From assembly GCF_025144335.1 (NCBI RefSeq), contig NZ_CP083539.1, positions 2,481,501 to 2,545,500 on the forward strand: a DNA stretch of 64,000 bases. The letters are read 5' to 3'. Below the pieces are notes generated by a model, which was given only the letters and a program-made list of their open reading frames with translations, was not told the DNA's origin and did not search any database. This stretch comes from Jannaschia sp. W003. Lineage in GTDB: Bacteria; Pseudomonadota; Alphaproteobacteria; Rhodobacterales; Rhodobacteraceae. The position numbers were made by a program, and so were the translations under genes. Shown one piece after another: positions 1 through 9,278 of the stretch; position 1 is the stretch's first letter; the number at the start of each line of letters is the position of its first letter.

Positions 1-2170
1 CCTTGTGGCGGAACGTGGCCATCGCCTTGCGCAGGGCGTTGGCCTCGGGGCCCGAGAACTCGGCGGCGACCATGGCGATCTTCATGGCCTGCTCTTGGAA
101 GATCGGCACGCCCAGGGTGCGACCGAGGATCCGCTGCAGTTCGTCCTGCGGGTGCTGCGCGCCGGGGGCCGGGTAGACGATGCTCTCCTGTCCCTGGCGA
201 CGGCGCAGGTAGGGGTGGACCATGTCGCCCTGGATCGGGCCGGGGCGCACGATGGCGACCTCGATCACCAGGTCGTAGAAGCTGCGGGGGCGCAGCTTGG
301 GCAGCATCGCCATCTGCGCCCGGCTCTCGACCTGGAACACGCCCAGGGATTCGCCCCGGCATAGCATGTCGTAGGTCGGCCGGTTGCCGGGGCGGTCGGG
401 CCGGTCGTGCTCCTTGGGCACGGTGGCAAGGTCGAGGTCGATCCCGCAGTGGCGGCGCAGGAGCGCGAAGCCCTTGGCGAGGCAGGTCAGCATCCCCAGC
501 GCCAGCACGTCGACCTTGAAGATGCCGAGCGCGTCGATGTCGTCCTTGTCCCACTCGATGAACGAGCGGTCGGGCATGGCGCCGTTGCCCACGGGCACGA
601 TCTCGGTCAGCGGCGTCTCGGTCAGGATGAAGCCGCCCACGTGCTGGCTCAGGTGGCGCGGCATGCCGATCATCTCGTGCGCCAGCGCCAGCACCCGGCG
701 CAGGTAGGGGTCGTGGAGGTCCAGCCCCGCCTCGCGCACCCGCGCGTCGCCCACGCCGCTGCCGAAGTGCCCCCAGACCGTGGAGGCGAGCTTAGACGTT
801 ACGTCCTCGGTCAGCCCCATCGCCTTGCCCACCTCGCGGATGGCGGAGCGCGGGCGGTAGTGGATCACCGTGGCGCAGAGGCCGGCGCGGGCGCGGCCGT
901 ACTTGGCGTAGACGTACTGGATCACCTCCTCGCGGCGCTCGTGCTCGAAGTCGATGTCGATGTCGGGCGGCTCGTCCCGGTCCTCGGACAGGAAGCGCTC
1001 GAACAGGACGTCGTGCTCGGCGGGATCCACGCTGGTGACGCCGAGGCAGAAGCACACGGCCGAGTTCGCCGCCGAGCCGCGCCCCTGGCACAGGATGGGC
1101 GGGTCGACGCGGCGGCGGGCGAAATCGACGATGTCGTGGATGGTCAGGAAGTAGGTGGCGATGCGCTTCGAGCGGATCAGCGCGAACTCCTTATGGATCG
1201 TGCGCTCCACGTGCTCGGGGATGCCATCCGGGTAGCGCCCGCGCGCGCCCTCCCAGGTCAGGCGCTCCAGCTCCTCCTGGGGGGTGCGGCCCCGAGGCAC
1301 GACCTCGTGGGGATACTCGTAGCGCAGATCATCGAGCGTGAAGGCGATGCGATCCGCGAGCGCGCGGTTGGCCGCCACGGCGTGGGGCCACTCGGCGAAG
1401 AGGCGCGCCATCTCGGCGGGGGCACGCAGGTGCCGCTCGGCGTTGCGCTCCAGCAGCGGGCCGGCGGCGTCCACGGTGGTGCCCTCGCGGATGCAGCTCA
1501 TCACGTCCTGCAGGGGTCGCCTCGCGGGGTGGTGGTAGAGCACGTCGCCCGTGGCCAGCAGCGCGAGGCCTTCCGCGCGGGCTAGGGCATCCAGCCGGTT
1601 GATCCGCGCCCGGTCGTCGCCGTGCCACAGGCGCGCGGCGCCGAGGTGCGAGAGCGGCAGCGCGCGGCGCAAGGCCGGCAGCGCGCGCGCGAAGGCGTCG
1701 AGGTCGGCTCCCGGCATCGCCACGAGGTGCAGCCCCTCGGCGTGCTCGGCCAGCATGGCCGGCGTGATCTCGGTCACGTCCTTGCCCTGCCACGCCCCCT
1801 CGGGGGTGCGCATCTTGCCCCGCGACAGCAGCGAGGCGAGGCGTCCGTAGGCGGCGCGGTCGCCGGGATAGGCCAGCAGCTCCGCTCCGCAAGTCAGCAC
1901 GAGGCGGCAGCCCACCAGCGCCCGCACGTGGGCGGTCTTGCCCTCGACGTGCATCCGCACCACGCCGGCCAGGGTGTTGCGGTCGGCGATCCCGAGCGCG
2001 TCGTAGCCCAGGGCGTTGGCGGTGCCCATGAGGTCGCAGGCGTCGGAGGCCCCGCGCAGGAACGAGAAGGCCGAGGCCAGCCCGAACTCCACGAACGGCG
2101 CGCGGGCGTTGGGGCGGAAGCCGTTCGCGGCGCTGAGCGTGCGTTTCTCGGGGCCCTCGACGTCAGGCAT
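1..2170 (-). CDS. dnaE2: Error-prone DNA polymerase DnaE2 (ImuC), 3' part beyond the window
   Basis: C-family translesion polymerase, the catalytic member of the SOS-induced ImuA/ImuB/DnaE2 mutasome. Only the first 723 codons are present; the frame stays open to the left edge, so about a third of a typical ~1,080-residue protein is missing. Seen: a PHP-type N-terminal region with SFLRGAS (residues 36-42) and DRNTLAGV, the GRGSAANS motif (about 362-369), and the palm motif PDIDIDF (402-408) carrying the catalytic aspartates, so the polymerase looks active. The ATG at 2170 overlaps the upstream gene by 8 bp (ATGCCTGA), indicating translational coupling. It is the last of four overlapping genes downstream of the LexA box at 4870-4884. 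Identification is secure; the C-terminal OB region cannot be checked here. Confidence 0.95.
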   Translation of the reverse strand, partial: MPDVEGPEKRTLSAANGFRPNARAPFVEFGLASAFSFLRGASDACDLMGTANALGYDALGIADRNTLAGVVRMHVEGKTAHVRALVGCRLVLTCGAELLAYPGDRAAYGRLASLLSRGKMRTPEGAWQGKDVTEITPAMLAEHAEGLHLVAMPGADLDAFARALPALRRALPLSHLGAARLWHGDDRARINRLDALARAEGLALLATGDVLYHHPARRPLQDVMSCIREGTTVDAAGPLLERNAERHLRAPAEMARLFAEWPHAVAANRALADRIAFTLDDLRYEYPHEVVPRGRTPQEELERLTWEGARGRYPDGIPEHVERTIHKEFALIRSKRIATYFLTIHDIVDFARRRVDPPILCQGRGSAANSAVCFCLGVTSVDPAEHDVLFERFLSEDRDEPPDIDIDFEHERREEVIQYVYAKYGRARAGLCATVIHYRPRSAIREVGKAMGLTEDVTSKLASTVWGHFGSGVGDARVREAGLDLHDPYLRRVLALAHEMIGMPRHLSQHVGGFILTETPLTEIVPVGNGAMPDRSFIEWDKDDIDALGIFKVDVLALGMLTCLAKGFALLRRHCGIDLDLATVPKEHDRPDRPGNRPTYDMLCRGESLGVFQVESRAQMAMLPKLRPRSFYDLVIEVAIVRPGPIQGDMVHPYLRRRQGQESIVYPAPGAQHPQDELQRILGRTLGVPIFQEQAMKIAMVAAEFSGPEANALRKAMATFRHK

Positions 2171-2729
2171 CGCAGCACCGCATCGGAATGGCATCCAGCG
2201 CCTCCAGCGCGAAGGCGAGGCAGTCCGAGACCAGCAGGTAGGGCCGCGACAGCGCCCGGTCCCACCACAGGTTCGCCGCCGGCAGGCGGGCCGCGTCGAC
2301 GCGCGCGGCGTGGGCCAGCAGCGTGACGTGGCGCGGCAGGCCGAGGCGGGGCAGCGCCGGCTCCACGTGGCACAGGCTGCCCCGCTCGGTGATGGCCGCG
2401 CCCGTGGCCCGCACGATCAGGCCGTGGTGGGGGGCGCCCACGTCCACCGGCCAGAAGCGGTGGAGGCCGGGGTCGTGGGCCTCGATGACCTCGCGCGCCG
2501 CCTCCGAGGCCACCAGCAGCCCGGCGCGGGTGGCGAAGAGGTCGGGCACGGGATGGCGCAGGGGCCGCAGGCGGCGGGGCAGCTGCGCGTCCCGAAGCCC
2601 CGCCCCCTCGCCGTAGCCCATGAAGGCGCGCACCGCCTCGACGGCGTGCCCAGCCCGCAAGGCCCGGCTCGCCCATCCGCCGTCGTCGGTGGGGAACGGC
2701 GCGGCGCCGATGCGCAGGATACGGGTCAC
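2163..2729 (-). CDS. Small Imm11/DUF1629-like protein inside the SOS mutasome operon
   Basis: A 188-residue open frame filling exactly the gap between imuB and dnaE2. Its GTG start overlaps the imuB stop (GTGA, 2726-2729) and its TGA overlaps the dnaE2 start by 8 bp, so it is almost certainly translated as part of the operon. Seen: an N-terminal stretch with GGWASRALRAG, then PDLFATRAGLLVASEAAR followed by HRFWPVDVG, and near the C-terminus WWDRALSRPYLLVSDCLAF. These resemble the two blocks of the Imm11 (DUF1629) family, first named from polymorphic-toxin immunity proteins and widespread outside toxin loci. The match is from memory of the family pattern, not a search. No signal peptide or membrane segment. 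A role in mutagenesis is suggested only by position. Alternative: an unrelated operon passenger. Confidence 0.75.
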   Translation of the reverse strand: MTRILRIGAAPFPTDDGGWASRALRAGHAVEAVRAFMGYGEGAGLRDAQLPRRLRPLRHPVPDLFATRAGLLVASEAAREVIEAHDPGLHRFWPVDVGAPHHGLIVRATGAAITERGSLCHVEPALPRLGLPRHVTLLAHAARVDAARLPAANLWWDRALSRPYLLVSDCLAFALEALDAIPMRCCDA

Positions 2730-4249
2730 GGGAACAGGCCGTGGAGGAACCAGCGCGGCGCCCCGCCCCGGCCGTCGCCGGCGACGCCCTCGCGGAACAG
2801 CCAGTAGCGGCAGCCGTCGGCGTCCTCGATGCGGAAGTAGTCGCGCAGGCGGGTGCCGGCACGGTCGCGCCACCATTCGGGGGCGATGCGCTCGGGGCCC
2901 GCGTAGCGCACCACGTCGAGGCGGCGGCGGCGCCACTCCAGCCGCACCGGCGGCCCCTCGGGCACGGCGTAGAGCACGCGCACCTCCTCGGGCGGGCGGA
3001 GCAGCACGGGCGGGCGCGCGGCACGGGCGGCGGCAGCGGGGGTCTCGGGGGCGCGCAGGGCCTCGGCCCAGACCTCGGCCCGCTCGGGCACGTGGCTGTG
3101 GCGCAGCACGGGCCGCGTCACCGCGGCGGGGCCGAGGCGCGCCGAGAGGCGGTCGATCAGATGCGCGAGGGCCTCGCGCTCGTCGACCTGCCCGGCGAGA
3201 TCGGGCTGCGCGGCGTCGAGCCGCTCGGGCGACAATCCTTCCAGCACGAGGGCGTCGAAGCCGAAGCCGGGGTCGATGCGCTCCAGCCGCCCCTCGAAGA
3301 GCCGGGCCATGTGGGCGGGGTCGCGGGTGGGGCGCGCGAAGCCGGCCTCCACGCCGCGCACCTCGCCGTCGGTGCGGAACACGCGCAGGACGAGGCGGCG
3401 GCACCCCTGGCCGCCCCGGTCCAGCCGGGCCGCGAGCGCGCGGGCGAGGTCGGGCACCAGGGGCGCCGCGTCCTGCACCGGCTCGGGCAGGCGCAGGACG
3501 GCGCGCAGCGGCTCGGGGTCGCCCACGGGGGCCAGCGGCTCGGGCAGGAGGCCGGTGGCCTGGTCGAGCCGCACCAGCGGGTTGCCCCCGGGGGCGGCGC
3601 GCGCGAAGCGGCGCATCAGCGCGGGGCGCGGCACGGCGCGCAGGTGGCCGACGGTCTTGAGCCCCAACCGCGAGAGCGCGAGCGCGGCATCCCCGGGCAG
3701 GCGCAGAGCGGCCACGGGCAGCGGGTCGAGCGCGGCGGTGTCGGTGCACGTGGCGCGCACCGGGCCGAAGCGGGCCAGCGCCCAGGCCGCGCCCCAGGTG
3801 GGGGCGACGGCGAGCGCCGCGCTCAGGCCCAGCCCGGCGAGCCGCGCCTCCACGTCGCGCAGCAGCGCCGCCTCGCCGCCGAACAGGTGCTCCACGCCGG
3901 TGGTGTCCATGACCAGCCCGTCGCCATCCACGGCGACCCACGGGCTCCAGCGCTTCGCCCACTGCGCGAGGCGCTGGAGGAAGGCAGCGTCACCGGCAGG
4001 GTCGGACCACGCGACCGCGAGCGCGGGCGCGGCGGCACGGGCGTCCACCACGCGAGCGCCCACCCGCGCGCCCAGGGCGGCGGCCGCGCGCGAGACGGCG
4101 TGGATGACGGGGCCGTGGGAGCCTTCCGCCGCCAGGATCACCGGCAGGTCATCGGGCGGCGCGTCGAGCGCCTGCGCCCGCACCTTGCGCCACCGCTCCA
4201 TCGCCAAGGAGGGGAGCGAAACCGAGACGATCCTGCGCCGCGCCGTCAT
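2726..4249 (-). CDS. imuB: ImuB, Y-family polymerase-like mutasome subunit
   Basis: ImuB is a Y-family protein that has lost polymerase catalysis and acts as the hub linking ImuA, DnaE2 and the sliding clamp during translesion synthesis. The 507-residue product starts MTARRRIVSVSLPSLAMERW; the first catalytic motif of true Y-family polymerases (an acidic residue in this stretch) is absent, and the second reads VAVDGDGLVMDTTG instead of an S-x-D-E pattern, as expected for non-catalytic ImuB. The following HLFGGE is typical of the family. Length fits (~500 residues). The ATG at 4249 lies inside imuA (101-bp overlap), and the TGA at 2726 overlaps the GTG of the next gene. A canonical clamp-binding peptide was not recognised. 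Confidence 0.92.
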   Translation of the reverse strand: MTARRRIVSVSLPSLAMERWRKVRAQALDAPPDDLPVILAAEGSHGPVIHAVSRAAAALGARVGARVVDARAAAPALAVAWSDPAGDAAFLQRLAQWAKRWSPWVAVDGDGLVMDTTGVEHLFGGEAALLRDVEARLAGLGLSAALAVAPTWGAAWALARFGPVRATCTDTAALDPLPVAALRLPGDAALALSRLGLKTVGHLRAVPRPALMRRFARAAPGGNPLVRLDQATGLLPEPLAPVGDPEPLRAVLRLPEPVQDAAPLVPDLARALAARLDRGGQGCRRLVLRVFRTDGEVRGVEAGFARPTRDPAHMARLFEGRLERIDPGFGFDALVLEGLSPERLDAAQPDLAGQVDEREALAHLIDRLSARLGPAAVTRPVLRHSHVPERAEVWAEALRAPETPAAAARAARPPVLLRPPEEVRVLYAVPEGPPVRLEWRRRRLDVVRYAGPERIAPEWWRDRAGTRLRDYFRIEDADGCRYWLFREGVAGDGRGGAPRWFLHGLFP

Positions 4250-4847
4250 GGCCTGCCACCCAGGCGCCGGGCGCGCGGGAGCGCGAGCGGAACAGCTCGG
4301 CCCGCCAGCGCGGCACGCCGGGGGCGCGGTCGTCGAAGGGCGCGGGCGCCGACGGCAGCGAGGCCACGCGCCAGCGCTCGCGCGCCGCCGACAGCCCCGG
4401 CTCGGCACCCCGGCGCAGGAGCCAGCACGGCACGCCCGCGCCTTCCGCGCGCATGGCGAGCCGCTTGGTGGCGGTGAAGTCGAGCCGCGGCGCCTCGCCC
4501 CAGACCTCGCCCATGACGGCCGCGAGCGAGGGGCACGACAGCCCCATCTCCATCGCCGCGAGCAGGTCCGCGATGCGACCCGCCTGCACGTGGATCACCT
4601 GCCGCGCGAGGCCGGTGGCGTAGGGCCGCCCCGCCTCCAGCGCCGAGAGCCGGTCCTGCACCCAGAGCACCGGGCCGGGCCGCGTCACGGCGGCCAGCGC
4701 GAAGCCCGTGAGCGCGGCGTCCGAGGCCGCGGCCCACGCCTCGGACAGCGTGGCCCGCGAGGGGTCCGGGGGCGCGGCGGGCACGGCGGAAGGCATGGGG
4801 GGGCCGTCCGCTCCGGACGGGTCCGGAAAGGGGAGAATCTGCGTCAT
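4149..4847 (-). CDS. imuA: ImuA, RecA-like mutasome accessory protein
   Basis: ImuA is a RecA-related protein needed with ImuB and DnaE2 for damage-induced mutagenesis in bacteria lacking UmuDC. The 232-residue frame has the family features LSEAWAAASDAALTGFALA, WVQDRL, LARQVIHVQ and AMEMGLSCPSLAAVMGEVW. The ATG at 4847 sits 22 bp downstream of a perfect LexA box and is the first gene of the operon. The C-terminal ~34 residues overlap the imuB start in another frame; they still read like an ImuA tail (WVAGHDGAAQDRL), so a long natural overlap is more likely than a frameshift. Confidence 0.92.
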   Translation of the reverse strand: MTQILPFPDPSGADGPPMPSAVPAAPPDPSRATLSEAWAAASDAALTGFALAAVTRPGPVLWVQDRLSALEAGRPYATGLARQVIHVQAGRIADLLAAMEMGLSCPSLAAVMGEVWGEAPRLDFTATKRLAMRAEGAGVPCWLLRRGAEPGLSAARERWRVASLPSAPAPFDDRAPGVPRWRAELFRSRSRAPGAWVAGHDGAAQDRLGFAPLLGDGAVAQGAGAGARRAAR

Positions 4848-4869: not shown

Positions 4870-4908
4870 GTTCTACGTTTGTTCTAGTCACCCCCGGGGG
4901 CGAGTCAA
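4870..4908 (-). promoter_or_regulatory. SOS promoter of imuA: LexA box over the -10
   Basis: On the minus strand a -35-like TTGACT (4908-4903) is followed after 16 bp by TAGAAC (4886-4881). Overlapping the -10 is GTTC-N7-GTTC on the plus strand (4870-4873 and 4881-4884), equivalent to GAAC-N7-GAAC on the other strand, the LexA-binding consensus of alphaproteobacteria. LexA bound here would block RNA polymerase, so the imuA-imuB-Imm11-like-dnaE2 operon should be damage-inducible. The box is exact; the -35/-10 assignment is an inference from spacing. Confidence 0.88.
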
Positions 4909-9263: not shown

Positions 9264-9278
9264 GAACAATGGGGGAAC
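9264..9278 (-). promoter_or_regulatory. LexA (SOS) box upstream of uvrA
   Basis: GAAC (9264-9267), seven bases, GAAC (9275-9278) on the plus strand, i.e. GTTC-N7-GTTC reading toward uvrA. This is the same exact consensus as at the imuA promoter. It lies 2 bp past the stop side of the upstream MFS gene and 104 bp before the uvrA ATG. A clear -35/-10 pair was not identified. Confidence 0.85.

Follow-up and report, generated by a model that had tools for sequence, protein, structure and literature searches.

A gene of the Imm11 family lies between imuB and dnaE2 in Jannaschia sp. W003, and we suggest, giving this explanation about an even chance, that it is an orphan immunity gene which was captured and kept in the SOS-type imuA–imuB–dnaE2 operon of one Jannaschia lineage. 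The operon is found at one end of the 64,000 nucleotides of the W003 genome that were analyzed (the window). From the same DNA it had been predicted that an Imm11-like gene of 188 codons is embedded in this mutasome operon, that its GTG overlaps the imuB stop codon in the motif GTGA and that its own stop codon overlaps the start of dnaE2 by 8 bp. These features are all present in the sequence. The gene starts with GTG at 2729–2727 and stops with TGA at 2165–2163, and imuA, imuB, the Imm11 gene and dnaE2 are all encoded on the minus strand, each overlapping the next:

4870..4884, motif on the plus strand: SOS (LexA)-type box GTTCTACGTTTGTTC, pattern GTTC-N7-GTTC, 22 bp ahead of the imuA ATG
4149..4847, minus strand: imuA, weak match to NF033429 ImuA (17.7 bits, cutoff 150), called mainly from its place between the SOS box and imuB
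2726..4249, minus strand: imuB, judged by its family a presumably inactive Y-family polymerase, PF00817 and PF11799 above cutoffs
2726..2729, minus strand: GTGA, shared by the stop of imuB and the GTG of the Imm11 gene, read from the sequence
2163..2729, minus strand: Imm11-family gene, 188 codons, PF07791 with 23.3 bits, fold match to 6a4c, GC3 0.957
2163..2170, minus strand: ATGCCTGA, 8-bp overlap of the Imm11 gene end (stop) with the dnaE2 start (ATG), read from the sequence
2..2170, minus strand: 5′ part of dnaE2, continuing beyond the window edge, NF004225 as well as PF07733, PF17657 and PF02811

Apart from the additional gene, the operon of W003 agrees with the known imuA–imuB–dnaE2 cassette in gene content, in gene order and in the SOS-type box ahead of it, with the reservation that imuA matches its profile weakly; the partial DnaE2 protein scores 897.5 bits against the error-prone polymerase profile NF004225 (cutoff 939). 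That the classical cassette has no fourth gene, as was also stated in the original prediction, is overstated, since SRAP/DUF159 genes and stand-alone ImuB-C genes adjoining such operons are described in part of a published report (PMC3765255).

In agreement with the SOS mutasome operon of the original prediction, a SOS-type box is found in front of imuA. Sites of the type GTTC-N7-GTTC, which we take to be the alphaproteobacterial LexA box, occur three times in the window compared to 0.6 expected from the base composition, and LexA would probably control the operon in the cell. J. aquimarina likewise has a box of this type ahead of imuA, and in the Jannaschia genome G132 one is located between imuA and dnaE2, which are divergent there; the contig of Jannaschia sp. 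LMIT008 stops within imuB and the promoter of its operon lies outside the available sequence. No convincing SOS box was seen ahead of the Jannaschia Imm11 genes away from the junction. In four loci (L072, L075, L078, and L117) one identical SOS-like motif is located within an Imm11 gene. A further SOS-box-like sequence of the window, GTTCCCCCATTGTTC at 9264–9278, lies just ahead of a uvrA frame.

The assignment of the 188-residue protein to the Imm11 (PF07791, DUF1629) family is supported by sequence profiles and by a predicted structure, with a marginal pass of the profile: the match reaches 23.3 bits at a cutoff of 22.1 and covers profile positions 56–96 of 194. The two other proteins found at imuB–dnaE2 junctions (see below) score 23.2 bits, summed over the frame, and 28.7 bits. 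Each of the six proteins in alignment A2 has PF07791 as its sole family match at E ≤ 1, and NCBIfam gave no match for the W003 gene. The AlphaFold2 model, with a mean pLDDT of 64 and a pTM of 0.70 (28–47 for the four other models), can be trusted only moderately and has one clear match in the PDB, namely MXAN_0049 (6a4c), a solved Imm11 member with which the W003 protein shares 14% identity; this fold search was a second look at the matches returned by Foldseek and is limited to the families listed there. When the PDB was searched by sequence, phmmer yielded no useful match and a profile search returned 6a4c only with an E-value of 0.2; the resemblance to MXAN_0049 thus rests on the fold comparison. 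Taken with the profile matches, the predicted fold agrees with the Imm11/DUF1629 likeness that had been proposed from two conserved-looking blocks.

We could rule out a chance frame by the PF07791 match, the fold match, the codon-position G+C, and the conservation of the frame. The G+C contents at the three codon positions are 0.81/0.56/0.96 for the Imm11 gene, 0.84/0.57/0.96 for imuB and 0.73/0.47/0.96 for dnaE2. The frame is free of stops in all three junction copies and, between W003 and J. aquimarina, is the best conserved of the six frames (62%), followed by an antisense frame with stops (55%). For this pair the dN/dS values are nearly the same for the Imm11 gene (0.28), imuB (0.26) and dnaE2 (0.28), and point to constraint on the Imm11 gene. 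Compared to LMIT008 the constraint is less clear and the values are not clearly purifying, with 0.81 (W003) and 0.51 (J. aquimarina) for the Imm11 gene versus 0.27 and 0.22 for dnaE2; all these values come from our own Nei–Gojobori count with Jukes–Cantor correction, on which G+C bias and saturation have an influence. The Imm11 gene changes faster than imuB and dnaE2. On the protein level, W003 shares 62% with J. aquimarina and 42% with LMIT008 for Imm11 versus 78% and 72% for DnaE2, and such a drop is more in keeping with an immunity protein than with a subunit of a polymerase.

Among 20 Jannaschia genomes, 18 carry dnaE2, and two (G123 and G124) have only its replicative paralogue. An Imm11 gene between imuB and dnaE2 was found in three of these 18 loci, that is in W003, in J. 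aquimarina GSW-M26 (62–63% identity to the W003 protein) and in Jannaschia sp. LMIT008 (42%). Whereas a search of the genome contigs with the single protein found nothing, the alignment-based search recovered the latter two loci. The gene is therefore present at two further imuB–dnaE2 junctions, and the original prediction, which was to fall if homologues were missing at such places and dN/dS looked neutral, stands in this respect. The 4-bp overlap with imuB is kept in all three copies. On the side of dnaE2 the overlap measures 8 bp in W003 and 10 bp in LMIT008, and in J. aquimarina there is none as dnaE2 starts ∼98 bp past the stop of the gene. It had also been claimed that the gene cannot be lost without disturbing its neighbors. 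The constant overlap with imuB is in line with this claim; on the contrary, the overlap missing in J. aquimarina and the absence of the gene from the locus of G132, which retains imuA, imuB and dnaE2, are not. In G132 (L082, 1–3571) imuA–imuB is inverted relative to dnaE2 with one SOS-type box between them, and the C-terminus of its ImuB deviates, ending in WWLQGISG where others end like WFLHGLF.

The remaining 14 Jannaschia dnaE2 loci are devoid of an Imm11 gene, and the distance between imuB and dnaE2 ranges from −1 to 445 bp in them. In the family, 169 of 198 genomes have a DnaE2 match at E ≤ 1e-150, which may include other DnaE paralogues. Of the best 30 of these 169 matches, 29 are from other genera. 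For 28 of these 29 the flank that could be read includes imuB upstream of dnaE2, and in none of these 28 loci was an Imm11 gene found at E ≤ 0.01; the gaps, with the end of imuB estimated from alignment, reach up to about 440 bp. Thus, with 3/18 loci in Jannaschia and 0/28 readable loci in other genera, the gene is not co-conserved with imuB–dnaE2. Two candidate remnants were rejected. The match in the junction of G058, a genome of another genus (best E 6e-4), involves one distant Imm11 protein, spans 33 residues and does not lie on the same strand as dnaE2, and that in G132 has a best E of 0.003; both were judged to be due to chance because 35 queries were run against G+C-rich DNA with no low-complexity filter.

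In the Jannaschia DnaE2 tree a branch (100/100) separates the three gene-bearing species and G132 from the rest, with G132 adjoining J. aquimarina (92/80). When other genera are included, G058, which has no Imm11 gene, falls among these four (98/35). The simplest account would be that the junction gene was gained once and lost once or twice. Nevertheless, the same four species are not united in the DnaE1 tree, and only 50% of the bootstrap trees of Imm11 place the three junction proteins together in one clade (in this tree the rows L065 and L070 were shortened by the chosen start, all fetched proteins were made to begin with M, and only exact duplicates were dropped), so that the gene may also have arrived independently. 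The DnaE2 of W003 is 73–75% identical to that of several other genera (L122–L128) versus 64–67% to that of 14 other Jannaschia; the whole cassette may have been transferred between genera, or the genus may be broad.

Imm11 genes of the genus are mostly orphans, as PF07791 is matched at E ≤ 0.001 in 9 of the 20 Jannaschia genomes (60 genomes were examined in this search, 11 had a match, and 9 of these were above the curated cutoff) and the AHH toxin family in one of the 20. At the same threshold AHH was not found in the W003 genome. The junction gene has imuB and dnaE2 as its neighbors and no toxin gene beside it; we therefore file the protein under Imm11 but do not count the locus among the toxin–immunity pairs. 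Other Imm11 genes lie at unrelated places, in W003 at proS/lolE, in G129 at glnD/murJ, and in G123 near rpsL (neighbors identified by eye). Alignment searches, which scored at most eight candidates per genome and may miss weak Imm11 genes, were run on 394 genomes of the family, of which 13, W003 among them, had an Imm11-like match, and on 385 genomes of the class, of which W003 alone had one. The 12 family genomes besides W003 account for 21 such matches, and in no case does the flank (up to 1.5 kb, less at contig ends) contain imuB or dnaE2. Tandem or repeated Imm11 genes were seen in L117 (G264), L118 (G274), L121 (G022), and L092 (G123). In G022 short frames with GHH/GHD motifs alternate with the Imm11 genes; they look AHH-like by eye and were set aside as they match nothing in Pfam at E ≤ 0.1. 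A longer frame beside an Imm11 gene of G001 has no Pfam match in its first 1000 residues.

The operons of nuclease colicins offer a comparison, as they hold a DNase immunity gene under LexA control together with the toxin gene. W003 likewise has a putative immunity gene in a SOS-type operon, but without the toxin gene. In Myxococcus xanthus the Imm11 protein MXAN_0049 binds and neutralizes the AHH nuclease MXAN_0050, and AHH–Imm11 pairs, additional Imm11 genes and cross-binding at 46% identity have been described (PMC12077181). The likeness of the W003 protein to this system is its predicted fold. The difference is an identity of 14%, no adjacent toxin gene, and a SOS-type mutagenesis operon in place of the pair. 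Imm11 is listed together with AHH, HNH, and SHH nuclease toxins and also in polyimmunity loci in part of a further report (PMC3482391); such orphan and polyimmunity genes likewise have no adjacent toxin, as is the case for the other Jannaschia Imm11 genes inspected. A DNA-damage operon is not described for them in the part of PMC3482391 used here, whereas the W003 gene overlaps imuB and dnaE2. In the open-licence literature, with most subscription papers outside the search, we found no report that brings imuB, dnaE2, and DUF1629 together.

How could an orphan immunity gene be of use in this operon? DNase toxins turn on the SOS response in E. coli according to parts of two reports (PMC9635880; PMC6688995), and with the Imm11 gene behind a SOS promoter the antidote might be made in answer to the attack. 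An injected nuclease toxin of the AHH/HNH-EndoVII type would cut the DNA, the repression by LexA would be lifted and the operon transcribed. The overlapping start and stop codons, which suggest translational coupling of the gene to imuB and dnaE2, would allow the Imm11 protein to be made together with ImuB and DnaE2, and it would bind and block the nuclease while the mutasome handles the lesions. Binding of a nuclease toxin by the junction protein is inferred, as is any benefit of the damage-induced production. If this holds true, a defense against nuclease weapons would be triggered by the very damage they cause and be tied to mutagenic repair, giving a simple link between conflict among bacteria and mutation. 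It would occur in a few related marine bacteria, where the antidote is perhaps made whenever the DNA is damaged.

The immunity-gene reading is favored by the PF07791 match, the six of six matches of A2, the MXAN_0049-like predicted fold, the SOS-type box, the mostly orphan state of Imm11 in the genus, the reported SOS induction by DNase toxins, the dN/dS of the close pair, and the drop in protein identity compared to DnaE2. Against it argue the missing neighboring toxin and AHH not being found in W003 at E ≤ 0.001, as well as the marginal Pfam pass, the middling model with 14% identity to MXAN_0049, the dN/dS values versus LMIT008, and the 50% clade of the junction proteins. In addition, the production of an antidote only after the damage might not be in time to help. 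The variable junction and the orphan Imm11 genes at unrelated places in the genus give weight to a rival view, which we take seriously, that the gene is a passenger, one of many orphan Imm11 genes in a gap that tolerates insertions, its SOS placement having no functional meaning and the gene, if kept at all, serving ordinary immunity. The wide range of gap lengths in Jannaschia and in other genera, a gap that holds another element in several genomes, the missing gene in G132, and the dN/dS of 0.81 and 0.51 versus LMIT008 all fit this view, but the overlap with imuB is the same in three of three copies, all three frames are intact, and the closest pair shows a dN/dS of 0.28. We regard the passenger as possible but doubtful.

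The original prediction had favored an accessory factor of translesion synthesis or a modulator of its mutagenicity, with the Imm11 protein now acting on translesion synthesis through contact with ImuB or DnaE2. The common operon with its overlapping frames and SOS-type box, the placement kept in three species, and the purifying dN/dS of the closest pair could be taken in its favor. The sparse distribution speaks against this idea, as do the loss of the gene in G132, where imuA, imuB, and dnaE2 are kept, and the faster change compared to imuB and dnaE2; in addition, the protein clearly resembles nothing but a nuclease antidote, and the other Imm11 genes lie away from mutasome genes. Nothing in our analysis supports a role in translesion synthesis, and we consider it unlikely. 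In its most specific form, the idea would make the antidote fold of one Jannaschia lineage a fourth component of the DnaE2 mutasome that is induced by damage, binds to ImuB or DnaE2 and determines the mutagenicity of repair; this appears quite improbable.

A conserved RNA-like element was noticed in the imuB–dnaE2 gap of five other Jannaschia (G121, G126, G130, G133, and G134) and in four of the gaps read in other genera (G065, G175, G206, and G006), the loci being L032, L034, L040, L042, L043, L131, L132, L140, and L147. It is ∼80–100 nt long, is predicted to form two hairpins, and occurs in either orientation relative to dnaE2; the copy of G134 is flanked by inverted repeats. Ten copies were aligned, of which 8 come from such junctions, and by raw count 12 of the 25 predicted pairs have both sides changed in at least one sequence. 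Rfam gave no match at E ≤ 1 in 10 loci including five of these junctions. With a covariance model built from the 10 copies, whose E-values are roughly calibrated, matches were found in 101 of 149 family genomes at E ≤ 1e-4, with 1–4 per genome among the matches listed, and in 19 of 20 Jannaschia genomes at E ≤ 0.001. Jannaschia sp. W003 itself has three matches, one copy in L151, and all of them lie outside the window.
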